A DNA stretch of 64,000 nucleotides from Bdellovibrio reynosensis (GTDB taxonomy: Bacteria > Bdellovibrionota > Bdellovibrionia > Bdellovibrionales > Bdellovibrionaceae): contig NZ_CP093442.1 of NCBI RefSeq assembly GCF_022814725.1, positions 3,224,001 through 3,288,000 of the forward strand, read 5' to 3'. Every line of letters starts with the position of its first letter. Within the stretch, counting starts at the first letter, position 1. The translations under genes and the position numbers were made by a program. The notes beneath the pieces were generated by a model. That model was not told where the DNA came from. It made no database searches and saw nothing but the letters and a program-made list of their open reading frames with translations. This document shows, piece after piece, positions 43,080 through 64,000 of this stretch.

Positions 43080-43763
43080 ATGAGCACCTTGTTATACCGA
43101 CTCAAGGCCCTTGAGTATTCTTATCTTTGGAATAAGCAGCAGGTTCCCGTTTTAAAAGGCATTGATCTGGAATTAGAAAAAGGATGTTTTTCTTGTATCG
43201 TGGGTCCTAGTGGTACGGGGAAGACAACTTTATTAAATCTTCTTGGATTGATCGATACGCCATCTAGCGGTCATATCGAATTTTCTGGTGAAGATGTGAC
43301 CCACTTAAAAGAATCCGATAAAGAAGAAGTGCGATTGCACAAGGTAGGATTCATCTTTCAAAGCTTCTATTTGATTCCGACCTTAACAGTCCTTGAAAAT
43401 ACGGCCTATTTTTTACCTTCACTTGGATACAATACGAATGAAGCCCACAAAACAGCATTAGAAACCTTAGCGCTGTTGGGACTGGCTGATCATGCAAAGA
43501 AAAAACCCTTAGAGCTTTCTGGTGGACAACGCCAACGGGTCGCTATTGCGCGAGCGATTGCGAAAAAGCCAGCCGTGGTTCTAGCTGACGAACCCACCGC
43601 GAACCTAGATTCAAAAACAGCAGAAATGACAATCAATGCATTTAAAGAATTACAGAAAACTGAAAACACCAGTTTTATTTTTTCGACTCACGATTCCCAC
43701 CTGGTCAGTTTTGCTAAGTCTGTCTATCACATGAAAGACGGGCACATTGTAGGAAGCAATTAA
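43080..43763 (+). CDS. ABC transporter ATPase, LolD/MacB type
   Basis: 227 residues. Walker [10 protein letters not shown] is at about 42-50, the Q-loop is in [18 protein letters not shown], the signature is [14 protein letters not shown], Walker B is [12 protein letters not shown], and the H-loop is in FSTHD. Size and motifs fit the LolD/MacB/FtsE group, whose partners are FtsX-like permeases. The frame opens earlier at 43017, inside the barrel gene, but ATG 43080 is chosen because aaggag precedes it. The permease gene begins one base after its stop. Confidence 0.93.
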
Positions 43764-43764
43764 G

Positions 43765-44970
43765 ATGGAATTATTAAAAATTGCCTGGAGAAATTTATTT
43801 CGAAACCCGCGCCGCACTTGGGCCAGTCTTTGTACTGTCGCTTTAGGATCTGCGGGACTGTTGATTTACCAAGGATTTAATACCGGAGTTATGAATCAGT
43901 ACCGTGAAAATGTGATTCACGGTTATTACGGGTTTGGTCAAGTTTTCCCACCCAACTATTTTGGTAAAGTTCATGAACAACCTTGGAAGTTGTGGTTTGA
44001 AGATGGCGAAAAGGTGGAACAAGAAATTCGTTCTTCTGCCGCCGTCACCCAAGTTTTTCCCCGCGTGTCTTTTTATTCATTCATTGTTAAAGGTGGTATC
44101 ACCTTAGGTGGAAAAGGGGAGGGGGTCATTCCTGAAAGGGAAAATACTTTTTTCACCGAAATGAATTTTATTTCCGGTCATGATCTGCAAGGCCAGGATC
44201 AGATTATCTTGGGTAAAGGTTTGGCAGAAAGTGTGGATGCCAAAGTCGGCGATACAGTGACACTTTTGACTCAGACAGTGAATGGGCAACTTAATGGGGC
44301 TGATTTAACGGTCGCGGGGATCTTTTATACTGGTAAAAAAATCATCGATGATTCTTTTTATCGCGTAGATCTTAAACAAGCCCAAGCTCTTTTAGATACC
44401 AATCGAATCGAGATGTTTGCCTTAGCAACAAAGGGTGTTGAAGCATGGCCTCAGGTAGAAAAAGACATTCGTAAGGCCAATGCGACTTTAGAGGCTGTGC
44501 CGTTTGAAATCCTAGATAAGAACTATTACCAAAACTCGGTGGATTTCTTAAATGCTCAGTTTGCTTTTATTAGATCCATCATCTTAGTCATTGTCGCCAT
44601 GGGTATCTTTAATGTGATTTCTGTGGGCTTGCTTGAACGTGCCGGTGAAATGGGTGCGCTTAGAGCGAACGGTGAAAAACGCAGTCGCCTGTTTAAGATT
44701 TTATTAATCGAAAATAGTTTGTTAGGTGTGCTGGGTGGTTTTTTGGGAATCTGTCTAGCGATCTTAGTAGATAAAACATTATTGGTGAAAGGTGTCCCTA
44801 TGCCACCGGCTCCAGGGATCACCCGTCAGTTCTTTGTGTTTTTAGAAATTCTGCCAGGCCATTACATTCAAGCATTATTATTGCCGATGATAGCAACAGT
44901 TCTAGCAAGCTTGTGGCCGATGATTAAGCTACTTAAAAAATCCATCCCAGAACTTTTGCGATCTACCTAA
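43765..44970 (+). CDS. ABC transporter permease, FtsX/LolE type
   Basis: 401 residues: one transmembrane helix near the N-terminus (after IAWRNLFRNPRRTWASL), a periplasmic domain of about 220 residues, then three transmembrane helices in the FtsX domain (AFIRSIILVIVAMGIFNVIS, LLGVLGGFLGICLAIL, ALLLPMIATVLASLW). ERAGEMGALRANGEKRSRLFKILLIEN is the coupling-helix region typical of MacB and LolC/E. These type VII ABC systems move lipoproteins or other envelope substrates by mechanotransmission. It ends with a strong terminator. Confidence 0.9.
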   Translation: MELLKIAWRNLFRNPRRTWASLCTVALGSAGLLIYQGFNTGVMNQYRENVIHGYYGFGQVFPPNYFGKVHEQPWKLWFEDGEKVEQEIRSSAAVTQVFPRVSFYSFIVKGGITLGGKGEGVIPERENTFFTEMNFISGHDLQGQDQIILGKGLAESVDAKVGDTVTLLTQTVNGQLNGADLTVAGIFYTGKKIIDDSFYRVDLKQAQALLDTNRIEMFALATKGVEAWPQVEKDIRKANATLEAVPFEILDKNYYQNSVDFLNAQFAFIRSIILVIVAMGIFNVISVGLLERAGEMGALRANGEKRSRLFKILLIENSLLGVLGGFLGICLAILVDKTLLVKGVPMPPAPGITRQFFVFLEILPGHYIQALLLPMIATVLASLWPMIKLLKKSIPELLRST

Positions 44971-44983
44971 AGTTCTTTAGTCG

Positions 44984-45013
44984 CGGGTCACCACATCATC
45001 GGTGACCCGTTTT
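44984..45013 (+). terminator. Terminator after the ABC permease gene
   Basis: Perfect 9-bp stem cgggtcacc/ggtgacccg with an eight-base loop and tttt after it. It overlaps the 3' end of the convergent NHL-repeat gene. Confidence 0.82.
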
Positions 45014-46706
45014 CTCTATACTTCTTCACGACATGATTAGCGCCGTCAGCAACAAAGATATTGTCCTCTGGATCAATATAGATTCCTAAGGGCTGATTTA
45101 GTTTATCTAAACCTTCCCCTTTGCTGCCAAAACTTGTCAGGAAGGTGCCGTCTTTATCATAGACCATGACTTTGTGATTAGTGGCATCGGGAACAAAGAT
45201 TTTTCCAGTTCTTGAAGTCGCAACACCTAGGGCCGTAGAAAGTTGGTTCTTACCGAAAGTGCTTATAAGTTGTCCTGAAGAACTGAATTTTTTTCCGACG
45301 GTCACGCCATTTTCTAAATCCATCACAATCACACTGCCATCTTTTGCCACTGTAATTCCCGCAGGAGAGGTAAAGTTATTGCCAGAGCTAAACTCGGTCG
45401 CACTTTTGCCGACCGTGTTTACTTTGACAACGCCACCATCAGCGTCGGCGATGAAAAGGGAATCGTCGCGATCAATAGACATCGCATAAGGACTTGATAA
45501 GTTCTTAACGCGCAAAGGATCTAAGGGTGTTCCGTTCAAATCAAAGCGCAGAACTACGTTTGATTCACTTAAATCGATAGCATAAAGATTTTTACGCGAA
45601 TCAATTGCCAGTCCCATAATCGGAGTGTTCGAAGGCCCAAAAGTTTTCACGTAAGTACCGGCACTATCAAACATATGAATGCCGTTGTTAGATCCCACAT
45701 AGAATTGTCCTAATGGACCACGCACTACACATTTCGGTGAATTCATTCGTTTCACGTATTTGGTGATGTAACTTCCATCATCCACTTTATATACGATTAA
45801 AGAATCCTGTACCCCCAGAAATAGTCGGCCTTTATTTAACGTTAAAGACATTAAATTTCCCAAGTAAGGGGAGCGATGTTCGCTGCCGTCGCGACTCCAG
45901 CTTAATGTTCCGGTGTGACTAAAACTTGTGACTCGGCCCTTCGAGCCCATTCGTTCTGCCACGATAAATCCATTGTCGGTTAAGACCATGTCACTGACAG
46001 CAGAACCTTTTATTTGGCGAGGCCAATCAAATTTATTAACGAAATTTCCTTTGGAATCAAATTTTTGCAGACTTTCCGTTTTCATGTCGACGACATAAAT
46101 ATTACCGTCGCGATCGACCGTATAGGAAGCAGGCCCTGAAATGACTTCTTTCCCACCCACTGACGAAACGGGATTTCCCGTCAGATCAAACTTGCGAATT
46201 TTACTATTGGCGGCTTCATACAAATAAATAAACCCATCACCACCAACCATCGGATTCATGGGCATAGCCCAATTAGGTCCTGCAAAGCTGACAAGCTCGC
46301 CTAAAAAAGTTCCATTGAAATCGTATTTGCGCAGGAACTGTTTTGTTGGTGGGTCACTTTCTTGTCCCGTTACATAAATGGCGCCACCATTATCGGCCCA
46401 CAAACCAGAAATACTGTGAACTTTTTCTGGAATGAAAGAGCGTACGCGTATTCCCTTGGCATTGACGATGTGGATTTCATTTCCATTTGCAGCGAAAATA
46501 AAGCGGTCAAAGGACGTAGAGCGCAAGAAGGTTTTGTATTGAGCCGTGAATCCCGGGTCACCTAAAGGAAATGGGCCGGTATTTTCTTCGCCGGGCTTTT
46601 GGTTACCAGGATTTAAAAGGTTTCCGTTGTTAGAGCTGCTACCCCAGCAACCGGTCAGCGCGAATAAAAGAAACAGAGAAAGAAGATAAGTAAGGGCTCG
46701 ATCCAT
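44988..46706 (-). CDS. NHL-repeat lipoprotein
   Basis: 572 residues from ATG 46706 (AAGGA eight bases before; a further ATG nine bases upstream is less likely). The signal MDRALTYLLSLFLLFALTGC has a lipobox. A low-complexity linker follows (SSSNNGNLLNPGNQKPGEEN), and then repeated beta-propeller blades with the NHL pattern, e.g. GNIYVVDMKTESLQKFDSKG, NLYAIDLSESNVVLRFDLNG and NIFVADGANHVVKKYRENG. It is predicted as an envelope-anchored propeller for protein or ligand binding. Its stop overlaps the terminator of the convergent exporter operon. Confidence 0.82.
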   Translation of the reverse strand: MDRALTYLLSLFLLFALTGCWGSSSNNGNLLNPGNQKPGEENTGPFPLGDPGFTAQYKTFLRSTSFDRFIFAANGNEIHIVNAKGIRVRSFIPEKVHSISGLWADNGGAIYVTGQESDPPTKQFLRKYDFNGTFLGELVSFAGPNWAMPMNPMVGGDGFIYLYEAANSKIRKFDLTGNPVSSVGGKEVISGPASYTVDRDGNIYVVDMKTESLQKFDSKGNFVNKFDWPRQIKGSAVSDMVLTDNGFIVAERMGSKGRVTSFSHTGTLSWSRDGSEHRSPYLGNLMSLTLNKGRLFLGVQDSLIVYKVDDGSYITKYVKRMNSPKCVVRGPLGQFYVGSNNGIHMFDSAGTYVKTFGPSNTPIMGLAIDSRKNLYAIDLSESNVVLRFDLNGTPLDPLRVKNLSSPYAMSIDRDDSLFIADADGGVVKVNTVGKSATEFSSGNNFTSPAGITVAKDGSVIVMDLENGVTVGKKFSSSGQLISTFGKNQLSTALGVATSRTGKIFVPDATNHKVMVYDKDGTFLTSFGSKGEGLDKLNQPLGIYIDPEDNIFVADGANHVVKKYRENGSPMMW

Positions 46707-46942
46707 GAACACCATCCTTGTCGTTTTGTCATAATGGTATTACGAGATCTCAGAACTTGGGCACATGGGTTTTAGCAAATACGATAGGTGACACCAGAGT
46801 ATTTGTTCAGTTTTTAGTCAATGGTGCCAAAGTGACGTTTTACGCACCTTTTCACTCGCTCAAATGCAATCTAAATGTATTTCACACAAGTTCTGTCTCG
46901 GTATAAGACTTGCTCTCTAAATTTTTTAGGAGAATCCAAAAC

Positions 46943-47941
46943 ATGAGAGTGTCAGTCCTTATTAACTCTAAAGCTGGATCTGTGAATGCAGATCTAGTTG
47001 AAGCCAAGGTGCGCGAAGCTTTGTTTCGCTGCGATTTGCGCTTCTGTCGGCCAGAGACATTAGAGGCGATGTGTGACTTTTTGCATGAAGAGCGCTCTCA
47101 GAAGACTGATTACATTATTATTTGTGGCGGTGATGGCACCATCAATGTGGCTTTACAATGTTTGATGAAGTGTCGTGATCATTTAACAATTCCACCGATA
47201 GCGATTGTTCGTTCAGGAACTGCGAATGATCTTGCCCACGAAATCGGTGTTTCTACACGTATTGATTATGCAGTTCGAAATATCTTTGAAGGCACAATCA
47301 AAAATATTGATGTTGTTGAAATCAGTTCCGGTGATCAAAAAAGATTTATGTTAACTAACGGTGGCCTAGGCATGCCGGCCATGGCAGCAGAGTTAGCAAA
47401 TAAGTTCCGCGCGAATTTGCAAAAGCTTGCAAACAATCCCAAGTCCGCCGCCGCTTATAAATTCCTTGCACAAAAAAGCTATCACGCCGTGAAGCGCATG
47501 GGTCCAGGTGTATATTCAATGATGACAGCAGAAGCGATTCGCACGTGGAATCCTGAAGGCTGGGGACTTGAAGTTGAAATTCCAGGTAAAGTGAACGTTG
47601 AAACAAATTCGCCCATAGTGTTGATCAATAACCAGCAAAGTATCGGAGGAAGTTTCACACCTGCTCCATACACTTCGAACACCGATGGAACAGTGAACCT
47701 GCTTCTTTCTGAGACAAGAAATATTCCTGAGCACACATTGGCCGCTTACCATATTCGTAAGGGAAGTGTTGATAAGTACTCAGCCTTTAAAACATTTGAA
47801 CTTAAAGAGTTCAGACTAAAGAGCCAGAATCCCCGCCGCGCTTTGACTTTTTTTGGGGATGGCGAGATCCTTCTAAAAGACGTTCAGGAACTATCAGTCC
47901 GCTGTATTCACAGAGGGCTGCCTGTGATGGTCAGACAATAA
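46943..47941 (+). CDS. Diacylglycerol-kinase-family lipid kinase
   Basis: 332 residues from ATG 46943, chosen because aggag lies nine bases before it; the frame opens at 46910. The N-terminal VLINSKAGS, GGDGT at 62-66 and SGTANDLA at 91-98 form the nucleotide site of the DAGK catalytic family (YegS/DgkB type). These enzymes phosphorylate diacylglycerol or related lipids at the inner membrane. It is first of six same-strand genes with short gaps or overlaps that all look lipid- or envelope-related. Confidence 0.85.
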   Translation: MRVSVLINSKAGSVNADLVEAKVREALFRCDLRFCRPETLEAMCDFLHEERSQKTDYIIICGGDGTINVALQCLMKCRDHLTIPPIAIVRSGTANDLAHEIGVSTRIDYAVRNIFEGTIKNIDVVEISSGDQKRFMLTNGGLGMPAMAAELANKFRANLQKLANNPKSAAAYKFLAQKSYHAVKRMGPGVYSMMTAEAIRTWNPEGWGLEVEIPGKVNVETNSPIVLINNQQSIGGSFTPAPYTSNTDGTVNLLLSETRNIPEHTLAAYHIRKGSVDKYSAFKTFELKEFRLKSQNPRRALTFFGDGEILLKDVQELSVRCIHRGLPVMVRQ

Positions 47942-47971
47942 GAAACCACTGGTAATTTTTGGAGGTCCTTT

Positions 47972-48991
47972 GTGACCAAACCGCGCATCCTCGTCACAGG
48001 GGGCACCGGATTTCTTGGCAAACGAGTTATCCCATTACTTCGTGAAAAATTCGAAGTGGACGTGTTGTCTCGTTCTGGCAAGACGGAAGTCCAGGGCGAT
48101 CTGACTCATTGGAATGCGGGTTTAGATTTTAATTCCCTTAGAGATAAGAACTACCAAATGTTTATCCATATGGCAGGTCTGTATGATTTGACCGCCTCTT
48201 ACGTGGATTGTTTTCAGCACAACATCGCTAGTATGGGAACGGCCTTAAAAGTAGCCGATGCTTTGGGAATTCCCTTTTTCTTAAATACCAGCACTGTCGC
48301 CGCCGGGGTGAATTCTAGTCTAACTTCTGTAAAACCCAACGATCGAAATTTTTCTAAGCCTTTTCCAGATCCTTATTCAGAGTCCAAAGCCTTAGGTGAA
48401 CAGCTTTTAAATAATTGGGCAGCAAAATCCATTCAAGGCAGAATTAATTTACGTCTTGGTGTCTTAGTTGGTGATACAAAGCAAGGTACTATTGAAAGGG
48501 TCGATGGACCTTATCATGCGCCAGAAGCCTTTAAAAAGATCCGCAGACTGATTGAAAGTATTCCGACGGCTTTGATTTTGCCTGGCAAAGAAGACACGCG
48601 TTTGCCAATAGTGCCCGTGGATAAAGCCGCTGAAGCCATTGTGAAATTTGCTGAATGGTCTTTAATCACAAAACCCCAAGGTTACCACAGCTATCACATC
48701 ACGCCGACCTATGGGTTAGGAGTGAAGGACTTCTATATTTCAGCCCTGAAGTATCAGGCTATTCCCCATAATGGGATTGTCTTAGTCGATCAGATTCATG
48801 AAGCGTTGATTTTAAAAGCTTCAAATTTGGTTGCTAAATTTCCTGAAGAAGAACTGTATTACCTGATGAACTTTCCAGTGTATGAAACCAATGACACTAG
48901 AAAAGTTTTAGGCGAAAACTGGTGCCCTGAATTTAAAGAATATGAATCCACTTTCTGGAGCGGCTATGAAGCATTCGTATCGCATCGCTGA
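47972..48991 (+). CDS. Extended SDR (NAD-dependent epimerase/reductase)
   Basis: 339 residues starting with GTG behind ttggagg. GGTGFLG at residues 10-16 binds the nucleotide, and Y135-x3-K139 (PYSESK) is the catalytic pair, with TSTVAAG supplying Ser. RLPIVPVDKAAEAIV is typical of extended SDRs acting on sterol-like, acyl or sugar substrates. The last 26 bases overlap the next gene, whose product resembles acyl-ACP reductase, which suggests that the two work on the same lipid intermediate. Confidence 0.85.
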   Translation: MTKPRILVTGGTGFLGKRVIPLLREKFEVDVLSRSGKTEVQGDLTHWNAGLDFNSLRDKNYQMFIHMAGLYDLTASYVDCFQHNIASMGTALKVADALGIPFFLNTSTVAAGVNSSLTSVKPNDRNFSKPFPDPYSESKALGEQLLNNWAAKSIQGRINLRLGVLVGDTKQGTIERVDGPYHAPEAFKKIRRLIESIPTALILPGKEDTRLPIVPVDKAAEAIVKFAEWSLITKPQGYHSYHITPTYGLGVKDFYISALKYQAIPHNGIVLVDQIHEALILKASNLVAKFPEEELYYLMNFPVYETNDTRKVLGENWCPEFKEYESTFWSGYEAFVSHR

Positions 48992-51095
48992 GATCAGCTT
49001 TGGCCGACCGCACTGGGACGTGGCCTATGAGTTTGAATTCGAGGGCAATCACTTTGAAGTGCAACGCTTTGGTGCGAATTTTTCAGTGGATGCTGTTCGT
49101 CGCTATATTGAAACTTTAAGAAACCAAGTGGATGCGTTTGCTTTAACTAGTTTGCCGCCAGTGATTAAACTAGATCAGAAAAGTTATGTGCATCGCCAGT
49201 ACTTAGAAATCATGGGCATTCCTTGTCCAGTTCCATTGTGTGATGGAACCGGGCTTCGCGAAATTGCCAATATCAATTCATTAATTAAAAATATCGATTC
49301 AGGAATCATTCAGCCGGAACGGGGAACTTTCTTTCCTTCAGCTGTATTTTCAACAGAACTAGAAGAATACATCCGCGAACGCTATCGTAAATCCGTTTAT
49401 ATCGGCGATGCTTATTCACTTTTGGGTGTGCCATGGTTGATTCAACCTTTTCCGGGATTGATGACCCTTTCGAAGTTGGTGCTGAATGTCGCTAACTTTA
49501 AAGATCTACGTAATAACACGCCCCTGGCTGAAACGAAGCTGCAAAAGATCAGTCGTTCCTCGCTAGCGGCGCAAGTTGAAAACATCCAGTATGTTTTCTG
49601 CGATTTGCCGTTTTTACTTTTGTTTGATTCCGCCGTGGACTTTGTGCGCGGTAAGGACTTGGTGATTTGGTCTTCCCATCCGTTGATGGAAGAAGAAGCT
49701 AAGAAATACAATCCGCGCAGCGTGATCAATCTTTTCCCAGAAAATTATCGCATTCATCCTTACATGAATTATTCTGTTTTGGATGCGACTTTAAGATTAT
49801 CGCGCGAAAGAACCGCACCCTTATCCATTGAAGAATGGGAACAGCTTATCACTGATGATGTTGAGCTTCGTCAGATCACGCGTAAATATGTGATGACTCG
49901 TAACGTGTCTACGCAAGCAAAAATTTCGAAGGGTATTAACAGTGTTAAGAACAAAGTCTTTAAAGAAGATAAGCCTGACTTTGCCTTTGTTATTCACGCC
50001 CTTTCCCATAATGACTTTTTAAGACTGCCTGGTTTTTCTGTTCTTAAGCACATGCCTAAAGAATGGAACGATCCCTTTGATCGTCTAGCTGCAAAGGTTC
50101 CGCCATTTGCCCATGGGCGGATCAAACACATCATCAGTCAGCAGACGGGGGAAGAGATTAATGGTTTGATTTATGCCATTCCTGCGACCCCAAAGGTTTT
50201 AAAAGAAGCAGATCCCGAAGTCATATATCGCAAAATTGAAGGCATTTGTTATGATGCCGCCAATCGCGGTGCAAAAATGATTGGTCTTGGTGCCTACACT
50301 AAGATTGTTGGTGACCAAGGTATTACAATTAATCAAAACAGTCCTATTCCAGTCACTACTGGAAATAGTTTAAGTGCTTCGGCGACTTTATGGGCACTTA
50401 ATGACGTTGTTAAAAAAATGCGTTTATTAAATCATGATCCTAATACCGGTTTAGTGAACGGGATGGCCATGGTGATTGGTGCGACAGGTTCCATCGGCCA
50501 GGTTTCAGCTAAATTATTATCATTAGCTTTCAATAAACTTTGCATCGTGGCACCACGAATGAATCGTTTGTTAGAACTAAAACAAACCATTGAGGCGATG
50601 TCGCCAAACTGTCAGGTGATGGTAGCAACCGATGCTAATGAACTGGCTGAACAAGCTGACGTATTAGTCACTGCGACGTCTGCCTTTGATCATAAGATCG
50701 TAGATGTGATGCGATTAAAACCAGGTGCTGTGGTCTGTGATTGTTCTCGTCCCTTGGATTTTGACATTGAAGACGCTAAGAAAAGACCGGATGTTTTAAT
50801 AATTGAATCTGGTGAAGTGAATCTGCCGGGCCCTGTGGAAATTGATTTTGATCTGGGTCTTCCTGGCAATACGGTCTATGCTTGTTTGGCAGAGACAGCT
50901 CTTTTAACTTTAGAAAGACAATATGAAGCCTTCACCATGGGGCGTGATATTGAGTGGAACAAGGTTAAACAGATTTATAAAATGGCCCAGCGCCACGGTG
51001 TTCAGTTGGCGGCAATTCAAGGTCATACAGGAATTATTACTGATAAAGAAATTGAGCTCACACGACAATTGGCATTATCTAAACGTAGAACGTAA
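48966..51095 (+). CDS. Acyl-ACP-reductase-like protein with large unknown N-terminal domain
   Basis: 709 residues from ATG 48966 (ggag six bases before; the frame opens at 48942). Residues about 338-690 follow the order of cyanobacterial acyl-ACP reductase (AAR), which makes fatty aldehydes from acyl-ACP. They include FVIHALSHNDF, MIGLGAYTKIVGDQGITI (about 438-455), TTGNSLSASATLWAL (464-478), the NADP loop VIGATGSIG (503-511), and YACLAE around C640, which lines up with the catalytic Cys294 of the Synechococcus enzyme (FACFAE). The first 330 residues match nothing I recognise and make the protein twice the AAR length. No aldehyde-deformylating oxygenase gene is in the window, so alkanes are not the obvious product. 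Confidence 0.78.
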   Translation: MKHSYRIAEISFGRPHWDVAYEFEFEGNHFEVQRFGANFSVDAVRRYIETLRNQVDAFALTSLPPVIKLDQKSYVHRQYLEIMGIPCPVPLCDGTGLREIANINSLIKNIDSGIIQPERGTFFPSAVFSTELEEYIRERYRKSVYIGDAYSLLGVPWLIQPFPGLMTLSKLVLNVANFKDLRNNTPLAETKLQKISRSSLAAQVENIQYVFCDLPFLLLFDSAVDFVRGKDLVIWSSHPLMEEEAKKYNPRSVINLFPENYRIHPYMNYSVLDATLRLSRERTAPLSIEEWEQLITDDVELRQITRKYVMTRNVSTQAKISKGINSVKNKVFKEDKPDFAFVIHALSHNDFLRLPGFSVLKHMPKEWNDPFDRLAAKVPPFAHGRIKHIISQQTGEEINGLIYAIPATPKVLKEADPEVIYRKIEGICYDAANRGAKMIGLGAYTKIVGDQGITINQNSPIPVTTGNSLSASATLWALNDVVKKMRLLNHDPNTGLVNGMAMVIGATGSIGQVSAKLLSLAFNKLCIVAPRMNRLLELKQTIEAMSPNCQVMVATDANELAEQADVLVTATSAFDHKIVDVMRLKPGAVVCDCSRPLDFDIEDAKKRPDVLIIESGEVNLPGPVEIDFDLGLPGNTVYACLAETALLTLERQYEAFTMGRDIEWNKVKQIYKMAQRHGVQLAAIQGHTGIITDKEIELTRQLALSKRRT

Positions 51096-51142
51096 TATGA
51101 AGCTGGTAAAGCCGGCGCATAGATCAGAACAGAGAGGCTGTC

Positions 51143-51838
51143 ATGAAGACACTTTTGGCGATTTCATTTTTGACTTTTTCACTGACTGCAAAAGCTGAAG
51201 ACCCAGCAGAGTGGGTTAAAAAAGCAGATAATATTCGTAATCCCGCAGCGACTTATGAAATGAAAATCAAAGTTGAAACACCTGAAAACACGTCGGTATT
51301 TCAAGTTCATTTAAAAGGCCAAGATAAAACGTTGATTGTAACGCAAGAACCTGCTCGCGATAAGGGCCGCAACATGTTGATGCTTGATCGCGACTTCCAT
51401 GCTTACGTGCCGAACTTAAAGCGCTCCATGCGATTATCCTTAGCGCAAAAGCTTTCAGGTCAAGTGGCAAACGGGGATATCTCTAGAACCCGCTGGTACG
51501 GTGATTACACTGTGACTAAAGAAAGTGAAACTGCAGACGAAGTTCAGCTTTTGTTAAAAGGGAATAAAGACAATCTTACTTATGCTTGGATTCGTTTATG
51601 GCTAAAAAAAGGCAGCTTTCAACCACAACGTGCTGAATATTTAGGATTGAATGGTAAAACAGTTTTAAAGCGCGCTTTCTTTGAAGACTATAAAAACGTT
51701 GCTGGCGCCCTTCGCCCAACGACTTTAAAAATTGAAGACACCAACAAACAAGTCAGCCATATTCGTATTCTGTCGATGGGAAAAAGGGATTATTCCGATT
51801 CGTTTTTCACAGTACGTAATATGGAAAGCATGAAGTGA
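51143..51838 (+). CDS. LolA-like outer-membrane lipoprotein-sorting protein
   Basis: 231 residues with a signal peptide MKTLLAISFLTFSLTAKA. The mature part resembles the LolA-fold 'outer membrane lipoprotein-sorting' family (COG2834): EWVKKADNIRNPAATYEMKIKV, KGRNMLMLDRDFHAYVPNLKRSMRLSL and WIRLWLKKGSFQPQRAEYL. Such periplasmic proteins carry hydrophobic cargo and are often encoded beside exporters and barrels. It overlaps the next gene (a barrel) by four bases. Within this operon it may shuttle the lipid product across the periplasm (inference). Confidence 0.8.
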   Translation: MKTLLAISFLTFSLTAKAEDPAEWVKKADNIRNPAATYEMKIKVETPENTSVFQVHLKGQDKTLIVTQEPARDKGRNMLMLDRDFHAYVPNLKRSMRLSLAQKLSGQVANGDISRTRWYGDYTVTKESETADEVQLLLKGNKDNLTYAWIRLWLKKGSFQPQRAEYLGLNGKTVLKRAFFEDYKNVAGALRPTTLKIEDTNKQVSHIRILSMGKRDYSDSFFTVRNMESMK

Positions 51839-52902
51839 GATTTGGTCTTTTCCTGATTTTTGTTTTATCCAGTGTCATAGCTCGGGCTGACCTAACAGGC
51901 GCTGCCCGCTATGAATACATCCGCGGTTCTGAAGAAGAGCTAGCGCATCGCTTATTAGTTAAATCAAAACTGAATTCGAACCTGGGGCCTTTTGGAATTT
52001 TTATTGAAGGTTTCGGCGAAGTCGAAGGTAATGAAGATCAAGCCTTTATTCGCCGCTCGCCAACTAAAGGCTATCTGCAAGAAGCTTATTTAGAATTTAA
52101 GTTAGAATCTTTTTACGTACGGGTCGGAAGACAAGCTTTACGTTGGAGTGAATCTTGGACATTGCCATCGCTTGATGTGTGGACGGGAAGACGCTTTAAT
52201 CGTTTGTTCTTTGATCCGCTTGCAGATCAATTGACCCATCCCACCGGAGCGACCTTCACTTATGCTGCTGATACCTTTTCATTAGAACTTGCGGGAATTG
52301 GTGAAGTCGCTGAAACGACATATCCTATTCCACTTCCTCAAGTTGAAAACGAAAAGAACACTAGCTTTGGGGCAAGAGCAAAATGGACCCTGGGCGGCTT
52401 TGGCTTTTCTGCCATGAGTGCTCAAGTTCTTCAGAAAAATACGTTTGGAGCGACCGCAAATTATGCCTTTGAAACAGCCGTTCCTAAGATTGAACTAGGG
52501 CGCACGGTCAACTCTAGCATCTTAAGTCCCTTTGTTAAATACAGCGATTACCAAACCGTGGGTTGCGATATCTTTTTAGGAAATTGGATTTTGTTACCTC
52601 AGATCAGTATGTTTAAAGCAGACTCATCCAGTGAAATCTTTGAAGAACAGACGTCTTATTATTTGTCAGCGCAATGGAACCCTAACCGTCATGACATTCA
52701 GGTACAGGTTTTTACCAATACCACAACGGAAGATTCCTTTGGCAGCATAAGTTATGGTTATAATTGGACTGACTACTTTACTATCTTAGGCTTTGTGCAA
52801 AATTATTCCGGGCAAAGTGGACTTTATAAGATTTATGAAGAAATCACCGGCGGACCTGTGTTTGGTTTACGCATGGAACTTTCAGGCAACTTGGCATTTT
52901 AA
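51835..52902 (+). CDS. DUF1302-like outer-membrane barrel
   Basis: 355 residues starting at GTG 51835 within the end of the LolA-like gene (GTGA overlap). Signal peptide MRFGLFLIFVLSSVIARA. Strand-rich mature part includes YLQEAYLEFKLESFYVRVGRQALRWSES, the motif commonly seen in porin-like proteins encoded next to LolA-like and MMPL or FtsX exporters. The C-terminus RMELSGNLAF ends in Phe, as in BAM-assembled barrels. Predicted partner of the preceding protein in delivering a lipid or lipoprotein to the outer membrane. Confidence 0.72.
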   Translation: MRFGLFLIFVLSSVIARADLTGAARYEYIRGSEEELAHRLLVKSKLNSNLGPFGIFIEGFGEVEGNEDQAFIRRSPTKGYLQEAYLEFKLESFYVRVGRQALRWSESWTLPSLDVWTGRRFNRLFFDPLADQLTHPTGATFTYAADTFSLELAGIGEVAETTYPIPLPQVENEKNTSFGARAKWTLGGFGFSAMSAQVLQKNTFGATANYAFETAVPKIELGRTVNSSILSPFVKYSDYQTVGCDIFLGNWILLPQISMFKADSSSEIFEEQTSYYLSAQWNPNRHDIQVQVFTNTTTEDSFGSISYGYNWTDYFTILGFVQNYSGQSGLYKIYEEITGGPVFGLRMELSGNLAF

Positions 52903-52911
52903 GGGGACATC

Positions 52912-54009
52912 ATGGCTAAAGAGTATTTTTCGGACTTGAACTACACGTTAGCAAACGAAGATACGCGTATTGAATTTGAGCTTCTGCAGAACAATGCTGA
53001 TCGCGTTTTCAGTATTGCAGGCTCCGGTGCTCGCTGCTTGCCTTTGATAGCAAAAAATCCAAAATATCTCGATGTCATTGATATGTCGGTTAGCCAACTT
53101 TATTTGTGTGAACTTCGCTTGCAGTCCATGAAGACGCTGACCTATGAAGAATACTTATTCCTTTTAGGATATCGCGGAGCTTTACCAGAGGGCGATGATA
53201 CGGGTGATGACCGTGTAGCTTTGTTCGGAAAGTTGAAACTTTCTGAAGAAGCCACCAAATATTGGACAGAAAGAATTGATGGGTGGAAATCCCATGGATT
53301 TATTTTATTAGGTCGTTGGGAATCCCACTTTCAAAAACTCGGATCCTTATTCAGAGACGTTTTAAAGTGTGATTTCACGCCGATCTTTGCCGCCCAGTCG
53401 TTGGAAGAACAAGTGGCTCTTCATAAAAAACATTGGCCCACGCTGCGTTGGAATAGTTTTATCCGTATTGCTGCAAGTGAATATGTATTTAATAAGTTTT
53501 TATATAAGGGCCATTTCAGCGGTAAGGCCGATCATAAAACAGAGCAACGTGGTCCTTCGCAATTTATCATGGAAGAGTTTGATAGAATCTTCCGCACCCA
53601 ACTAGTTCGCAAAAACTATTTCATGCAGATTTTGTTTTTAGGTCGAATTGCTTTTGAAGAAGGCTTGCCACTGGAAGCGCAACGCCACATTTTTGAAGCT
53701 GTGAAGAATTCAAAAACTGAAGTGCGCTATTTACATGGTAATTTGTTAGAACACCTTCCATTGCACGCCTACGATTTTATTTCTTTGTCAGACACTATTT
53801 CTTATTTGCCGGCGGACGATGCCAATCAGATCTTACAAAGATTGAATGCGGGAACTAAGCCAGGAAGCTATATGGTGATTCGCTCTTTCATGCGTGCCCC
53901 TACGGCTGTTGATACCAAGGGCTGGGCTGATGCTAAAGGTAAAAATGAGTGGGCTCAGCATAAGGACGGAACGGGTGTTTATCAGTTTCATATTTATACA
54001 AAATCCTAA
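52912..54009 (+). CDS. DUF3419 (BtaA-like) aminocarboxypropyl-transferase
   Basis: 365 residues, cytoplasmic. It begins NYTLANEDTRIEFELLQ, followed by FSIAGSGARCLPLIAKNPKYLDVIDMS and QLYLCELRLQSMKTLTYEEYLFLLGYRG, the S-adenosylmethionine-binding core and family pattern of DUF3419. The known member BtaA moves the 3-amino-3-carboxypropyl group of SAM to diacylglycerol to begin betaine-lipid synthesis. A second motif region, YDFISLSDTISYLPADDANQIL, resembles a methyltransferase-like end. No BtaB N-methyltransferase gene is adjacent. Last gene of the six-gene lipid operon, nine bases after the barrel. Confidence 0.8.
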   Translation: MAKEYFSDLNYTLANEDTRIEFELLQNNADRVFSIAGSGARCLPLIAKNPKYLDVIDMSVSQLYLCELRLQSMKTLTYEEYLFLLGYRGALPEGDDTGDDRVALFGKLKLSEEATKYWTERIDGWKSHGFILLGRWESHFQKLGSLFRDVLKCDFTPIFAAQSLEEQVALHKKHWPTLRWNSFIRIAASEYVFNKFLYKGHFSGKADHKTEQRGPSQFIMEEFDRIFRTQLVRKNYFMQILFLGRIAFEEGLPLEAQRHIFEAVKNSKTEVRYLHGNLLEHLPLHAYDFISLSDTISYLPADDANQILQRLNAGTKPGSYMVIRSFMRAPTAVDTKGWADAKGKNEWAQHKDGTGVYQFHIYTKS

Positions 54010-54145: not shown

Positions 54146-54709
54146 ATGAGCAAAAGGGACGTTCGTAATTTCAATATCTTAGGTATTTTTTTGTTTATGG
54201 TTGGTTGTTCAGATGCGGCACCGACCGTTGCCTTATTGCGATCATTAGAAGGTTTTGATTTTAACGAAACTAGCATCGTGACCAGCAATCTTTCCGCAGT
54301 TCCGCTTTCGGCAAAGTGTTCTTCTTACGTTGGCAAGATTGAAATGAGTTTTGATGACGGTGTGACGTGGATTAATCCCGGTGCCCATGACGTTTCGGCG
54401 AAATCAGAATGCGCTAATGGTTCTTTCACTATGAATATCTCAAATTCGTCTAGCCCTTTAAATGCAATGACCATTGGAAATGGGCAGCTTATTAAAATCA
54501 AATTCCGAGCAATGCCTAAAGTGGGATCTTGGATCTATAGATCTGTTTCGTTGAAGTATTCTGCATCGACAGTGATTCGCCAGGAATTACTGGCGGGTTC
54601 GCAAATTCAAAGTGGTACTAACATGATTTTGCGCGGTCGTGCCCGCGCCCAAAGCCAATTTACCGCTAGTGGCGGTGGTTTTGCGATAACAGGAAGGATC
54701 AAGCAATGA
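54146..54709 (+). CDS. Lipoprotein coupled to a MAT-like fibre gene
   Basis: 187 residues. The signal NILGIFLFMVGC has a lipobox at FMVGC (Cys21), and the start MSKRDVRN is Arg/Lys-rich. The mature part looks beta-sandwich-like (IEMSFDDGVTWINPGAHDV, GSWIYRSVSLKYSAS) with two further Cys. It ends FAITGRIKQ. The last four bases overlap the start of the fibre gene, so the products are made together. An anchor or cap for the fibre at the outer membrane is a reasonable guess; no family was recognised. Confidence 0.7.
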   Translation: MSKRDVRNFNILGIFLFMVGCSDAAPTVALLRSLEGFDFNETSIVTSNLSAVPLSAKCSSYVGKIEMSFDDGVTWINPGAHDVSAKSECANGSFTMNISNSSSPLNAMTIGNGQLIKIKFRAMPKVGSWIYRSVSLKYSASTVIRQELLAGSQIQSGTNMILRGRARAQSQFTASGGGFAITGRIKQ

Positions 54710-57700
54710 AGCTGATTTTTACTTTATTCGCATTTTTATTTTCGCTTCCAGCCTCTGCGGCCATTGGTTCACTCTTTACCTATGAAGGTGTGCTGACTGA
54801 TTCTTCAGGAACACCGATTGCTTCAACGCAAACAGTGACTTTTCAAATTCTTTATTCACCAACTTGCGTGGTTTATTCAGAAACTCAATCTGTAACCCCG
54901 GGAACAGATGGGGAGTTCAGCGTTATCGTAGGAACAGGTTCGCGCACGGACACGACAGCCAACGCGATTGACAGAATTTTTGCGACCAGTGGTAGCGTCG
55001 CCTGTCAGGATGGGACCACTGTCAATCCAGCGGGTCAGGCGATTCGTTCTTTGCACATCAAAGTTGGATCTACGGATTTATCTCCTGATGTGACGTTGGG
55101 TAACGTTCCATTAGCCCTAAATGCTTATCGTCTTGAAGACAAAGCGGCTTCAGATTTTGTTTTGAAAAGTTCAGTCACCACTTGCGCAGTCGGTCAGTAT
55201 CTCAGTTTTGATGGCGTAAGTTTTTCTTGTCAAAACGACTCTGGCGGCGCCGGAATGGTTTCTGATGTGAATGTGACAACGCCACTTACTAAAGGTGGTA
55301 CAGCTTCTATTCCTGTTATTGGGATTTCAGTAGGTACGACTGCTGGCACTGTGGCTGCGGGTAATGATGCTCGTTTCACTGACGCAAGAACTCCAACCGG
55401 TAATGCGGGTGGGGATTTATCGGGAACTTTCCCGAATCCTACGGTTTCAAAGCTTCAAGGTGTGAGTGTTTCTGCAGTGGCACCGAATTCAGGTCAATTT
55501 TTAAAATATGACGGAGCATCCTGGATACCATCAGCTATTGCAATGACGGATGTTACAAATCTTAATTCAACTCTAGCTACCTATCATACAAATGCTGCTT
55601 TTAATACGGCTGTGGGAAGTGCGAACTGTGCAGCCCACCAAACACCATACTGGAATAGTGTTTCTAGTTCCTTTCAATGTCAGGCGATCAACGTTTCTGT
55701 AGCAGGTGACATAAGTGGAACTATTGGTGCCGTGAGTGTTAATAAAATCAAAGGTGTTGCTGTTGACACTACTGGGTTGATTGCGGGCCAAGTTTTAAAA
55801 TATGACGGTACGAAATGGGCTGCTGCGAATGATGATAACAGTGGCGGCGGCGGTGGCGGCGGCACTGTTACTAACGTTGCAACGGGCACTGGTTTAAGTG
55901 GTGGCCCGATTACATCCAGCGGAACAATTTCATTAGATAACACGGCTGTTACAGCTGGTTCTTACACTCGTGCTTCAATCACCGTGGATGCTCAAGGTCG
56001 TTTGACTGCGGCAAATAATGGTCCAGCTATTTCTTTAACCGCCGATGTGACAGGCACCCTACCTTTAGCTAATGGTGGAACTGGGCAATCAACTGCATTA
56101 GCTGCCTTTAATGGATTATCACCTTTAACCACCAAAGGTGATTTGGTTGTTAATGATGGAACGAACGACATTCGTCTGCCCGTAGGAACTAATGGTCAGG
56201 TTCTTACTGCAAACTCTGCGCAAGCATCGGGTCTGCAATGGGCGTCATTGCCAAGTGGGACGGTGACGAACGTGAGTGGTACACTTCCGATTATAGTTGC
56301 AACGGGATCGTCGACTCCGTCCATTTCAATAAATGATGCAACAACATCTTCTAAAGGTGCTGTGCAAGTGGGTGCTGGTATCTCTGTGGTTTCCGGTACT
56401 ATTGCTGCTGATCCTGCTAACTTTCCGTCTGCAGTTCCAGTAAGCAAAGGTGGTACGGGTGTTACTACTTTTTCACCAAACAGACTTCTAACTACGAATG
56501 GCTCAGGCAGTGCCGTGAGCTTCATGAACTGCGGAATGGGTCAGCTCATTTCATTTGATGCCAGTGGAATCCCAGTTTGTGCCAATGCGCCAAATTCGTT
56601 CAATAATGGTGGTAATAACTTTGGGGCTACAGCTGTATTTGGTACCAACGATAACTTCGATATTAATATTAAAACCAACAGCACCAACCGTATGACGGTG
56701 TCTTCTAGCGGTGATGTGCATATCACAGGCGGAGCTTTATCAGTGGGTTCAATGAATCCATTAGCCCGAGTCGATATTTCGACTGATAACAATAGTTCTT
56801 CTGTTTATAATCGTGTGTATTCATCGGGCAGCTCATTACATCATCCAAGCTTTGTAGGCGTACGTGGACGCGGTACACAGGCTTCGCCAGTAGTCGCATC
56901 TTCGGGCGATAAGTTGGCTGGCTTTTATGGTGCAGACCAGACATCCGCGGGAACCGCGATTTTTTCCGGAATGTCTGTTGTGGCGTCAGAAAATCATTCC
57001 GGGTCTGCTTTAGGAACTCGTTTGGAATTTAGTACGATTCAAAATACTACTACCACGGCCAATTTGGGAATGACGATCGATCACAATAGTCGTGTGTATG
57101 TTGGTACCTCAAGCGGCATTAGCAAATTGACGGTATTTGATACTAACGGTGCAGCGATCGAGGCCACTTCTGCATCTGCTGCATCGACAGCTATTAAACT
57201 AACCAACAATTCCGGGACACCTAAGTCATGGAGTATATTAACTGGTGGATCGTCTGCAGCCGGATTCAATGGTGCAGCTGGATCGTTCACAATTACCGAT
57301 TTTAATACAATTCCGATAAGTATCAACAGCGGTGGTTATGTAGGAATCCATACCACATCGCCGAGTAATGCACATAAGTTAACTGTAGGCGGAACGGCTG
57401 TAGCTACTAGCTGGGATATAAATTCAGATCGACGTTTTAAGAAGAACATTCAGACTTTGCCGAATGCTTTAACGAATATCTTAAAACTACGTGGTGTATC
57501 TTACGATTGGCGCACAGATGAATTTCCCGACCGAAATTTTAGTTTGCGAAAAGATATTGGTTTGATCGCACAGGAAGTTGAAACTGTTTTTCCAGAAGTG
57601 GTCACTACCGATAGCCAAGGTTTTAAGAGCGTGTCGTATAATAAATTAGTATCACCTCTTATTCAGTCAACCCGAGAGCTTTACGGTGTGTGCCTAGCTT

Positions 57701-60618: not shown

Positions 60619-63306
60619 TTATTCTTCTGAAAGAATCTTGATGGTTCCAGCTTTAGCATCGATTCGTACTCTCATTCCGGTTTTAATTTTCTTCGTTAAA
60701 CCAGGAATGCTGACGATAGCTGGGATTCCCATTTCCCGGGCCACGATGGCTGAATGGGAAAGCAGACTTCCGCGCTCTACTAAAAGCCCCGAAATCGCAG
60801 GATAAAGAGGTACCCATCCTGGATCGGTTCTCGCTGTCACCAGAATTTCGCCGTTGAGTTCTAAGTTATCTGTAGGATTTAAGATCACCTTCACGGTGCC
60901 TTCTAAAATTCCTGGGCAGCATGGCAGACCCTTTAGATCCCAATCGCCAGTTTCGCTAGAAATCTGCGACAGATCTTCTTCTTTAATAAACGTATTATTC
61001 CAGTAGACGGCTCCACGGGTCATAATGCGTGGGTCGGTGTCTTCTTGGAAGCGTTCATAATCTTTTTTGCGGATATCAATAAAGGCCTTTAAGTTCGGCG
61101 ACGGTAAAGTTCCATCATAGATCCCAAAGACTTCTTCGATTGTCAGCCAGAATACGTCCCGCGGGTTTTCGATGGCACCGACAGAGGCTAAATCTTCACC
61201 AACGGTTTGGAAGATCGTGCGCGCGATACCATAAATGCGAGTTCGTGCGAAACGAGTGTTCTCGCGGTTTTTAACCGCTTTTCTAGCATGCTTAAGCACC
61301 CAGAAATAAACCTTCTTTTTAAAGCCGGTCAAGTGTGCCGCTACTTTTTCTTCAGCCCCATTGCGCAGTGACTTTTCATGGGTGTCATCGTGGATTTCAG
61401 TTTGTCCTGATTTTAAGTAGTTTTTAAGGCAAACGAACAGATAGCTTGGATCTGTTAATAGATCAATTTCTTCTAACTTCATCTCGCTCATGCAACGGAA
61501 GCCGAAGCGATCTAAATAATCTAAAACAGACTTATAAAATTCTTGGTACGGGGACTGGCTGATGGCTTCTAAACCATCTTTCGGGTCCACGGACTCAATT
61601 AATTGGCGAAGGCCTTCATTTTTAGAGGCTTTATTTGCAAGTCGCAAGAGGGCTTTAGTTGGTTCAGCACTTTCTAAACCACCTTCACCAGCTAAAAGGT
61701 CATTTTGAATTGTTGAATCTAGTTCTTTTAGCCACGTCAAAGTCAGTTTTCGCAATAATCCAAAATGCACCATGCATAGGAAGTCATTGATGATCGGCGC
61801 CTTCCAGCGACCCATCATATTTCTTTCCATATCAAGATAAACGCGAACTAACTGGTCGCCGCGCATGCGTTTTAAATCCATGGTGCGGAAGCGGTCATAG
61901 TCACGGTGGAAGGTTTGCAAGAAATCATCAACCACACTTTGAATAGTGAAGTGATACTTTATGAAGTTAAATCCAGTCACGATTTTGCGGATACGACCCA
62001 TGGGCGTATCCCACGAAGGATGGGGTTTAATGCGATTAGCAATTTCATCGCTGAGCGCTTCAGATACACCCATCATGGTTTCCATGAACTCACGATTTTG
62101 TTTAAAGCCCGGAAGAACCCCAACAAGCTTGTACCAGTTAAATAGGTTATAATAAACGCGACCGTTTACCGATCCCAGCATGTTGCCAAGGTAAGAATCC
62201 ATGTCCTTAATGATCTCGTTTGGAACACCTAGGACTTCACAAAACTGCACGTAGACGGCTTTATAATTGCGAAGGGCAAAACTAAAGCTGAGTGGTGAAG
62301 TCAAGCCGCCATAGGATTCAATGATGTTCGAATTGTCCCATAAGTTCGGATAGCCAATAAGATCCTGATCTAAACTTGTCACAGGACGCGTTTGTAAAAC
62401 ATAAAGTTTGCCATTTTCAATGGCCCACTCGATATCCTGTGGACGGTGATATTGCTTGTGAATCAGTTGGCCCAGCTGATGAAGCTGATTTAATTCTTGC
62501 TCACTCAGTGAAGCCGTATTTACTAAAGGTTCTGCTACAACTTTAAGTTCACAGTGCCCTGATGATGACTTCTTCATCATTTCTTTTTTCTCTACGACTT
62601 CCTGACGAAGCAACTTTCCGTGATTTGCGTCTAACCAGAAAGAATCGGCATCAAGGGCGCCTGAAACCAGTCCTTCACCCACGCCATACACCGCAGAAGC
62701 GACATAGGTGTCGGTTTTCTTCGCCACCGGATCACAGGTAAAAAGAACTCCGGATTTATCTGGGTCTATCATTCGTTGAAGAACGACAGAAACTGAAATC
62801 TTTTTTAGGTCGATCTTGTTTTCAAGGCGATAAACTAAACCACGCTCTGAAAAAGCGGAAGCCCAACAGCCCTTGATATATTTTAAGATATCATCCTTAC
62901 CGTTCACGTAAAGGAAGCTAGAAAGTTGACCCGCAAAGGAATGGGCTAAGCTATCCTCATCCGCCGCTGACGAGCGTACGGAAAAAACTTTGTCTTCACC
63001 TAAAGTTTTTAATGCTTCGATCAAAGATTTTTCAACGGAAGTGGGTATGGCTGTCTTATCAAATAAAGCTACGATTTCTTGTTCAGCTTGCGCTGCCGTT
63101 AAAGATCCCTGCTGCAATTTATCTAACGAAATTTCAAGTGCTGATTTTACGCCAGGGGATTGCAAGAATTCATGAAAGTAGCGTTTCCCAAACACCACCC
63201 ATTCAGGTACAGGAAGTCCTGCTTGCGACATTAGGAAAAGGTTGAAACCTTTTCCTCCGGCTTCATTCTTAGCAAAAAACAGGGTGGACTTGGGTGTTAC
63301 TAACAT
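60619..63306 (-). CDS. PEP-synthase/rifampin-phosphotransferase-like dikinase
   Basis: 895 residues in three parts. Residues 1-330 are a PPDK-type ATP-grasp (GGKGFNL, VFSVRSSAADEDSLAHSFAGQ, WASAFSERGLVYR, IEWAIENGKLYVLQTRP). The middle, about 340-790, contains NIIESYGGLTSPLSFSFA, as in rifampin phosphotransferases. The C-terminal swivelling domain has ERGSLLSHSAIVARE with H851 as the phospho-carrier. It lacks the PEP-binding TIM barrel of true PEP synthase, so the phosphate acceptor is something bound by the middle domain. GGGAG precedes the ATG. It starts three bases after a UbiA-family gene, so a prenylated or lipid-like acceptor is possible, as is antibiotic modification. Confidence 0.8.
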   Translation of the reverse strand: MLVTPKSTLFFAKNEAGGKGFNLFLMSQAGLPVPEWVVFGKRYFHEFLQSPGVKSALEISLDKLQQGSLTAAQAEQEIVALFDKTAIPTSVEKSLIEALKTLGEDKVFSVRSSAADEDSLAHSFAGQLSSFLYVNGKDDILKYIKGCWASAFSERGLVYRLENKIDLKKISVSVVLQRMIDPDKSGVLFTCDPVAKKTDTYVASAVYGVGEGLVSGALDADSFWLDANHGKLLRQEVVEKKEMMKKSSSGHCELKVVAEPLVNTASLSEQELNQLHQLGQLIHKQYHRPQDIEWAIENGKLYVLQTRPVTSLDQDLIGYPNLWDNSNIIESYGGLTSPLSFSFALRNYKAVYVQFCEVLGVPNEIIKDMDSYLGNMLGSVNGRVYYNLFNWYKLVGVLPGFKQNREFMETMMGVSEALSDEIANRIKPHPSWDTPMGRIRKIVTGFNFIKYHFTIQSVVDDFLQTFHRDYDRFRTMDLKRMRGDQLVRVYLDMERNMMGRWKAPIINDFLCMVHFGLLRKLTLTWLKELDSTIQNDLLAGEGGLESAEPTKALLRLANKASKNEGLRQLIESVDPKDGLEAISQSPYQEFYKSVLDYLDRFGFRCMSEMKLEEIDLLTDPSYLFVCLKNYLKSGQTEIHDDTHEKSLRNGAEEKVAAHLTGFKKKVYFWVLKHARKAVKNRENTRFARTRIYGIARTIFQTVGEDLASVGAIENPRDVFWLTIEEVFGIYDGTLPSPNLKAFIDIRKKDYERFQEDTDPRIMTRGAVYWNNTFIKEEDLSQISSETGDWDLKGLPCCPGILEGTVKVILNPTDNLELNGEILVTARTDPGWVPLYPAISGLLVERGSLLSHSAIVAREMGIPAIVSIPGLTKKIKTGMRVRIDAKAGTIKILSEE

Positions 63307-63309
63307 AGC

Positions 63310-64000
63310 TTAAGCTCCCACGACGTAAATAAGAATGAGGTAATGCAAAAGTAAATAAACGCCGGAAATATTTCTAAAAAGATTCGCGGTTTTGTTTGTT
63401 TTCTTAAGCAGGTATCCCAGGCTTATTAAGATATAAATTCCAGCGGCCACCGCAAAAAGCGGAAGCGAAAAATACCAGGCAATTATTCCTACACCCAGTA
63501 TCACTTGACTGATCGAAAGGGCCCAAGCCCCATGGCAGCCAAAAATATTTGAATAGCTTGGAACGTGGGGTCTTTCCTCGGTCGGTGCGAAAGTTTTTCG
63601 CGCAAATTCAAAGAGGTTAAAAAAGGCCCAGTTCATTAGAAAGAAAAATAAAATAGCGGGCGATAAGAGTGTAATATCAACGCCACTCATAGCCACGGCA
63701 CTTGAAAGACCTAAAAGCACGCTGACGAAGGTGTGAGTAACTGCATAAGTGGTGAGGTGAGGACGAAGAATTTCGCCAATAAAAAACTCTTCATACATTA
63801 ACAGACTATAACCAATAGCCATTGCATGAATCAAAAAAGCATTTCGCCCAAAGCAAGCCGCTAAAACAAGTTCGAAGATGATTAATCCAATCAGTGCTTT
63901 TTTTACTTGGATAACGCTTAAGATACCGCGAGCCAGGGGACGAGTGGGATTGACCTTCAAATCCACTTCATAGTCTTTGATCTCATCAAACAAGCGCATG
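63310..64000 (-). CDS. UbiA-family prenyltransferase (5' end outside window)
   Basis: The visible 229 residues are polytopic, with about seven hydrophobic segments. They begin RLFDEIKDYEVDLKVNPTRPLARG, the first Asp-rich motif that binds prenyl diphosphate in UbiA enzymes. Because 60-80 residues normally precede this motif, the Met at the window edge is probably internal and the gene continues outside. The second conserved region reads FEFARKTFAPTEERPHVPSYS in place of a classical Asp-rich motif, marking an atypical subgroup. It is transcribed just upstream of the dikinase-like gene. Acceptor substrate unknown. Confidence 0.78.
   Translation of the reverse strand, partial: MRLFDEIKDYEVDLKVNPTRPLARGILSVIQVKKALIGLIIFELVLAACFGRNAFLIHAMAIGYSLLMYEEFFIGEILRPHLTTYAVTHTFVSVLLGLSSAVAMSGVDITLLSPAILFFFLMNWAFFNLFEFARKTFAPTEERPHVPSYSNIFGCHGAWALSISQVILGVGIIAWYFSLPLFAVAAGIYILISLGYLLKKTNKTANLFRNISGVYLLLHYLILIYVVGA

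Follow-up and report, generated by a model that had tools for sequence, protein, structure and literature searches.

The 64,000-nucleotide window analysed here (positions 3,224,001-3,288,000 of the single-contig 3.58 Mb genome of Bdellovibrio reynosensis, G000:C1) contains part of a two-operon locus of about a dozen genes that are inherited or lost as a set and almost certainly constitute a co-inherited pathway. Operon A comprises six open reading frames (ORFs), all on the + strand. The first, at window positions 46943..47941, encodes a lipid kinase of the DAGK_cat/YegS group (PF00781, 1.2e-20; YegS_C, 1.1e-6), its ATG preceded by AGGAG. It is followed by an extended short-chain dehydrogenase/reductase (SDR) at 47972..48991, a probable fatty aldehyde reductase (NAD_binding_4, PF07993, 3.8e-18), and by a predicted acyl-thioester reductase of 709 aa at 48966..51095, with an acyl-ACP reductase (AAR) domain in its C-half and a diverged AAR-like domain in its N-half. 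(The start of this gene was set at the ATG at 48966, where homologs begin to align; the ORF is open from 48942.) Then come a periplasmic LolA-like lipid carrier with a signal peptide (51143..51838; LolA_like, PF17131, 4.4e-31), a predicted outer-membrane barrel, also with a signal peptide (51835..52902), which has no Pfam family and whose barrel was inferred from sequence, and a DUF3419 protein (52912..54009; PF11899, 2.5e-59), a distant BtaA relative and probable S-adenosylmethionine-dependent 3-amino-3-carboxypropyl transferase. The genes are separated by 30, -26, 47, -4 and 9 bases, and all ORFs and gaps of an initial annotation of this DNA, which listed six + strand genes with gaps of -26 to 47, were reproduced. 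The close spacing and the conserved order suggest that the six genes are co-transcribed as an operon; scans for promoters and terminators gave no more sites than did shuffled sequences.

These six genes, which the initial annotation took as an operon, are indeed a conserved unit, but one that forms only part of a larger two-operon set. Two further elements, both missed by the initial annotation, belong to the same co-inherited genes. One is a pair of ATP-binding cassette (ABC) transporter genes on the + strand at 43080-44970, encoding a LolD-like ATPase (43080..43763, start codon approximate) and an FtsX/MacB-type permease that is nearest to LolCE (43765..44970; PF02687, 1e-16; MacB_PCD, 8e-12). 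In relatives, the ATPase gene adjoins operon A or sits inside it: two loci (L122, L123) carry kinase, SDR, reductase, ATPase, permease, LolA-like, barrel and DUF3419 genes on a single strand, as an eight-gene operon, and in four others (L120, L121, L124, L126) the ABC pair lies at the same place in inverted, convergent orientation. The other element, operon B, lies on the - strand, convergent to operon A; it begins at 60619 and extends beyond the end of the window. It encodes a PPDK_N/PEP-utilizer enzyme of PigC/RPH-type architecture (60619..63306; PF01326, 2.3e-76; PF00391, 1.1e-22) and a UbiA-like membrane protein (63310..64173, the window ending at 64000; PF01040, 1.2e-8), followed outside the window by an alpha/beta-hydrolase-AMP-ligase fusion, a formyltransferase-like gene and a FadD-like ligase. 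Operon B adjoins operon A in many of the relatives' loci; in G018, G001 and G009 it is on another contig or distant, with the co-occurrence kept. In the window, the ABC pair is separated from operon A by a - strand gene (44988-46715) for an NHL-propeller protein with a lipoprotein-like N-terminus, which in related species is absent at the same place or of low identity.

What holds these genes together? In the 24 genomes available for the genus, the kinase, reductase, DUF3419, permease and UbiA genes are jointly present in 16 and jointly absent, at the search thresholds used, in the remaining 8, and the permease is found in exactly the 16 that have the reductase. Across 100 genomes of relatives, presence of the full-length reductase agrees with that of DUF3419 in 96 and with that of UbiA in 97 (Fisher tests, which ignore relatedness, 8e-20 and 4e-22, respectively, well in excess of chance); UbiA is present in all 29 reductase-bearing genomes and in three without. 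In a recN phylogeny covering 23 of the 24 genus genomes, the distribution of the cluster needs at least four gains or losses forced by well-supported branches, and shared ancestry alone is therefore insufficient to explain the co-occurrence. The order kinase-SDR-reductase, often followed by DUF3419, extends to the Bacteriovoracaceae at ~25-40% identity, where the DUF3419 gene adjoins the reductase in many cases. Conservation, which the initial annotation had proposed as a check, is borne out to this extent: the genes are co-conserved, with the kinase-SDR-reductase order held in both Bdellovibrionaceae and Bacteriovoracaceae. Among the loci collected, some of which were taken twice and many of which are truncated at contig ends, the reductase family was counted 101 times, kinase and SDR 62 times each, DUF3419 52, PPDK-type 47, AMP-ligase 40, permease 30, UbiA-like 28, barrel 26 and LolA-like 24 times.

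The structure model marks this protein of 709 residues as a probable acyl-thioester reductase with an AAR fold, a catalytic cysteine and a diverged N-half, in keeping with its earlier description as an acyl-ACP-reductase-like enzyme. The model covers all 709 residues (mean pLDDT 83, pTM 0.54), of which residues 338-698 superpose on cyanobacterial AAR (6jzq/6jzy) with a Z of 31 over ~325 residues at 21-22% identity. (For 6jzq_B, Z is 31.7 and the root-mean-square deviation (rmsd) 3.2 over 329 aligned residues; the Foldseek match to 6jzy is 2.9e-19.) The likeness includes the NAD(P)-binding core and the catalytic residue: Cys640 is invariant in 43/43 sequences, and profile alignment pairs it with the AAR and PigE cysteines, making it the equivalent of AAR Cys294. 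The roles of Cys294 and Cys296 in AAR have been described, and the AAR cysteine accepts the acyl group (PMC8341465). Members of this family such as PigE and TamH reduce acyl-thioesters to aldehydes in the biosynthesis of lipid tails (PMC8341465, PMC9594044), and the reductase matches the PigE model NF053554 at 2.4e-49, below the cut-off. It also matches AcACP_reductase TIGR04058 below cut-off (6.7e-15; 55 of 449.7 bits) and, by these scores, is a relative of that family, not an equivalog. It differs from cyanobacterial AAR in being fused behind a 300-residue diverged N-half, in having an SDR as its partner instead of an aldehyde-deformylating oxygenase, and in its setting, an operon for a lipid head and export. 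In the proposed pathway, an acyl-thioester would be loaded onto Cys640 and reduced to a fatty aldehyde, an intermediate that is quite probable.

The origin of the N-half is less clear-cut. Modelled alone it reaches a pLDDT of 87; a Foldseek search against solved structures gave no match below 0.001, and a VIA-align comparison placed AAR structures first (Z 10.7, 236 aligned, rmsd 4.8), with unrelated rows only slightly lower at 8-9. Profile comparison with its own C-half gave a P of 0.004 and a probability of 8%. An ancient duplication of an AAR domain is hence no more than a lead. Beyond the phylum, the two-part reductase occurs widely, in Herpetosiphon, Chloroflexus-type bacteria, halophilic gammaproteobacteria (Halomonadaceae-type), Burkholderiales and Gordonia (L070, L081, L087, L078, L089, L084, L094), where the flanks that were fetched lack most of the remaining cluster genes; none of the libraries searched offers a curated name for the family at full length. 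A role of the full-length reductase in wax-ester synthesis was considered and rejected, since no wax synthase lies beside it in the Halomonadaceae-type loci; the neighbour c70 in these loci reads from its sequence as the large subunit of exonuclease VII.

The second step would fall to the SDR, in which Ser107, Tyr135 and Lys139 and the GxxGxxG motif are conserved in 56 sequences. It matches PRK07201 (1.6e-29) over its N-terminal half, and the alcohol-forming acyl-CoA reductase of Marinobacter (maFACR) is grouped with PRK07201. The N-half of maFACR is an extended SDR that reduces fatty aldehydes via a Ser-Tyr-Lys triad (PMC7573125). The SDR resembles this aldehyde-reductase half and would, by the same two-step acyl-to-alcohol logic, convert the fatty aldehyde to a fatty alcohol, except that in maFACR the first step is catalyzed by an SDR rather than an AAR-type cysteine enzyme, and that the two activities here reside on separate proteins. 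The pairing of an acyl reductase with an aldehyde reductase recurs elsewhere, which supports this assignment: homologs of the reductase adjoin an iron alcohol dehydrogenase (Fe-ADH) in Burkholderiales (L084), and an SDR in Gordonia (L094) and in one proteobacterium (L095). Formation of a fatty alcohol is therefore somewhat favored.

A fatty alcohol could also become the sn-1 ether chain of an alkyl ether lipid or plasmalogen; ether and alkenyl-ether types were among the products named by the initial annotation. An acyl reductase together with an SDR yields fatty alcohol, as happens early in the animal pathway. A UbiA member in archaea forms an ether bond, and the UbiA-like protein here could do the same. 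Alkylglycerol kinase activity exists in the ether-lipid pathway (PMC9131029). However, FAD-oxidase_C, the AGPS family, is present in one copy in each genome whether the cluster is there or not, and is not co-inherited with the reductase, which speaks against an AGPS-type route, and the locus has no ElbD-like fusion, acyltransferase or acyl carrier protein (ACP). The elb and MXAN_1676 ether-lipid operons of Myxococcus are comparable in their predatory, deltaproteobacterial-type host, in acyl reduction and in their SDR-type genes, but the locus described here is without AGPS, the ACS-ACP-acyltransferase fusion and the HAD gene. An ether lipid is thus improbable.

For the head group, the critical enzyme is the DUF3419 protein, which shares PF11899 over its full length with BtaA, the SAM:diacylglycerol 3-amino-3-carboxypropyl transferase. 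The match fits an aminocarboxypropyl transferase, as had been suggested from the sequence (no sequence relative was found among solved structures). In the scheme favored here, the enzyme would transfer 3-amino-3-carboxypropyl from S-adenosylmethionine onto a lipid hydroxyl to give an amino-acid head, and such a head is somewhat favored. BtaA is the characterized member of the family (PMC3972451), and an alternative, in line with the DGTS-like lipids named by the initial annotation, is that the protein is itself BtaA and that the operon makes the betaine lipid diacylglyceryl-trimethylhomoserine (DGTS) for phosphate-poor conditions. The genome has no BtaB relative at 1e-6, however, although BtaB is recovered next to BtaA by that search in the positive controls G077 and G150, whose BtaA proteins score 380-393 bits, compared to ~201 here, about half. 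DGTS synthesis, moreover, requires no reductase, UbiA or exporter, and the DUF3419 gene here is co-inherited with UbiA and a reductase. A betaine lipid is accordingly very improbable for this locus. The adjacent DUF3419 and methyltransferase genes at L144 6058-8027 (G077) and G150:C319:7217-9078 make these two organisms probable betaine-lipid producers in this phylum.

The remaining enzymes are harder to place. In the kinase, GGDGT, GTAND and GDGE are conserved in 57 sequences, and in the UbiA-like protein DExxDxxxD and RPLxRG in 27; the conserved motifs of these two, as well as those of the PPDK-type and formyltransferase-like proteins, are all intact. The PPDK-type protein has only PPDK_N and the mobile domain; the pyruvate/PEP-binding C-terminal barrel PF02896 was not found, and the protein is therefore not a phosphoenolpyruvate (PEP) synthase in the usual sense. 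The kinase, AMP-ligase, UbiA-like and PPDK-type enzymes may carry out activation, phosphorylation or coupling steps, to which no order is assigned. Bacterial ceramide pathways employ members of the DAGK-type, SDR and GNAT families, so one might read the kinase as a ceramide kinase, the SDR as a ceramide reductase and the GNAT protein that occurs in some relatives as a ceramide synthase. Such a sphingolipid is extremely improbable: the locus has no serine palmitoyltransferase-type gene, the proxy model for alpha-oxoamine synthases, TIGR01825, finds only weak fragments in 3/24 genus genomes (at most 22 bits), and the DUF3419 protein has no role in that pathway.

A parallel to the PPDK-type enzyme is found in prodigiosin and tambjamine biosynthesis, where PigE/TamH and PigC provide the same two families, a reductase domain (of the subfamily recognized by NF053554) and a PPDK-type enzyme. 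The product might then be a small molecule, not a membrane lipid, for which the PPDK-type ligase would couple a head to the fatty tail supplied by the reductase before export. Two further observations favor this possibility: in related loci of the Bdellovibrionaceae, aminotransferase-reductase fusions occur together with PPDK, P450 and MMPL genes, and the tailoring genes of operon B swap between species, as is typical for such clusters. On the other hand, the reductase here lacks the fused aminotransferase of PigE and TamH, no pyrrole-forming genes were seen at the locus, the PPDK-type protein scores 369 against a PigC-model cut-off of 1300, and the Lol-like carrier and barrel point to a membrane-bound product. 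Altogether, such a natural product is unlikely, if less so than the readings discussed above. The loci with PigE/TamH-type fusions (L131-L135; G051, G041, G028, G055, G057) are separate ones within the Bdellovibrionaceae that also hold PPDK-type enzymes and, in some cases, P450 and MMPL genes, and are likely fatty-amine natural-product clusters.

The exchange of genes in operon B also bears on the fate of the amine in the proposed head group. In G020, the formyltransferase is replaced by GNAT, P450 and MFS genes. Because a formyltransferase is exchanged for an acyltransferase (GNAT) between versions of operon B, we infer that the amine may be capped, with either the formyltransferase-like enzyme or the GNAT acyltransferase doing so, depending on the version. 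The UbiA-GNAT fusion beside DUF3419 in G036 is a further point in support, although capping remains tentative, at somewhat less than even odds. This fusion gene overlaps the DUF3419 gene (L141 7261-10130) in a genome where the reductase is absent and the sequence is partly masked as N; the pair is a possible minimal core. L043 has an AMP-ligase-UbiA fusion.

Export would be handled by machinery of Lol type, since the locus contains both a LolA-fold carrier and a LolCDE-type ABC transporter. The LolA-like protein, whose signal peptide was read by eye, has a solved relative in 3buu (NE2245; 2.3e-34), and the permease matches the LolCE model TIGR02212 at 1.1e-23 but with only 84 of 362 bits, below the cut-off. 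Gains and losses of the permease follow those of the biosynthetic genes, so it is not the housekeeping Lol permease. The ABC ATPase, the FtsX/LolCE-type permease and the LolA-fold carrier are thus common to this locus and to lipoprotein sorting by LolCDE-LolA, or PF17131 carriers in general, while the copies here are pathway-specific and accompanied by a dedicated barrel. The barrel is conserved beside the LolA-like gene in 26 loci. It had been described as DUF1302-like, a label that does not hold: PF06980 has no match to the protein of the window, which has no Pfam match at 0.1, and one homolog reaches only 0.083 (12.3 of 23.2 bits), below the cut-off. In the model, the ABC pair would lift the product out of the inner membrane for passage across the periplasm on the LolA-like protein, and the barrel would place it in or through the outer membrane.

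Directly past operon A is a gene for a 1047-aa protein (54706-57849), a candidate fibre-like adhesin that combines a Peptidase_S74 chaperone domain (8.4e-18) with a weak N-terminal match to tail fibres; a small lipoprotein-like gene lies at 54146.

From the gene families and their context, it is highly probable that the locus yields a lipid or something lipid-like and exports it by dedicated machinery, and the making of a modified lipid that is moved to the outer membrane, as the initial annotation had proposed, is the natural reading of a reductase, a DUF3419 protein and a LolA-like carrier with its ABC permease pair. The complete scheme, in which a fatty-alcohol-derived, 3-amino-3-carboxypropyl-headed and N-capped lipid or lipid-like natural product is exported by a Lol-like route, has a probability of roughly 45%. 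Several points weigh against it. The SDR scores 103 bits against PRK07201 (cut-off 549) and may act on another carbonyl; similarly, the 201 bits of the DUF3419 protein, set against those of true BtaA in the phylum, mean that its substrate may differ from that of BtaA. Synthesis of a simple aminolipid would have no obvious use for UbiA-like and PPDK-type enzymes. The reductase is missing from G036 and G054, which nevertheless carry DUF3419 and UbiA, and in G041 UbiA is accompanied by an aminotransferase-type reductase, so head and tail modules are separable. The reductase occurs without a DUF3419 match in G031 and G090, both incomplete genomes. Finally, while the gene set, its order, the co-inheritance and the intact catalytic motifs were observed directly, each step is assigned from sequence, model and context, and the product is deduced from them.

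No described pathway with this set of genes was found in the limited open-access literature and in the annotations of four family libraries, so that its novelty, which the initial annotation had suggested, is provisional. That the product represents a new lipid class, an N-formylated or N-acylated 3-amino-3-carboxypropyl lipid with a chain made via acyl, aldehyde and alcohol and a Lol-like system of its own for reaching the outer membrane, is on the whole doubtful. If true, this would be a further lipid pathway in predatory bacteria, in which the outer membrane of the predator comes into contact with that of the prey. The presence of the cluster in 16 genomes and its absence from 8 within one genus provides a natural experiment for lipidomics, and with the cultured strain kdesi (L040) among the loci, deletion mutants are feasible. 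A dedicated Lol-like export line for a lipid other than a lipoprotein would become testable, and a Lol machine that once served lipoproteins would have been turned to a specialised lipid.

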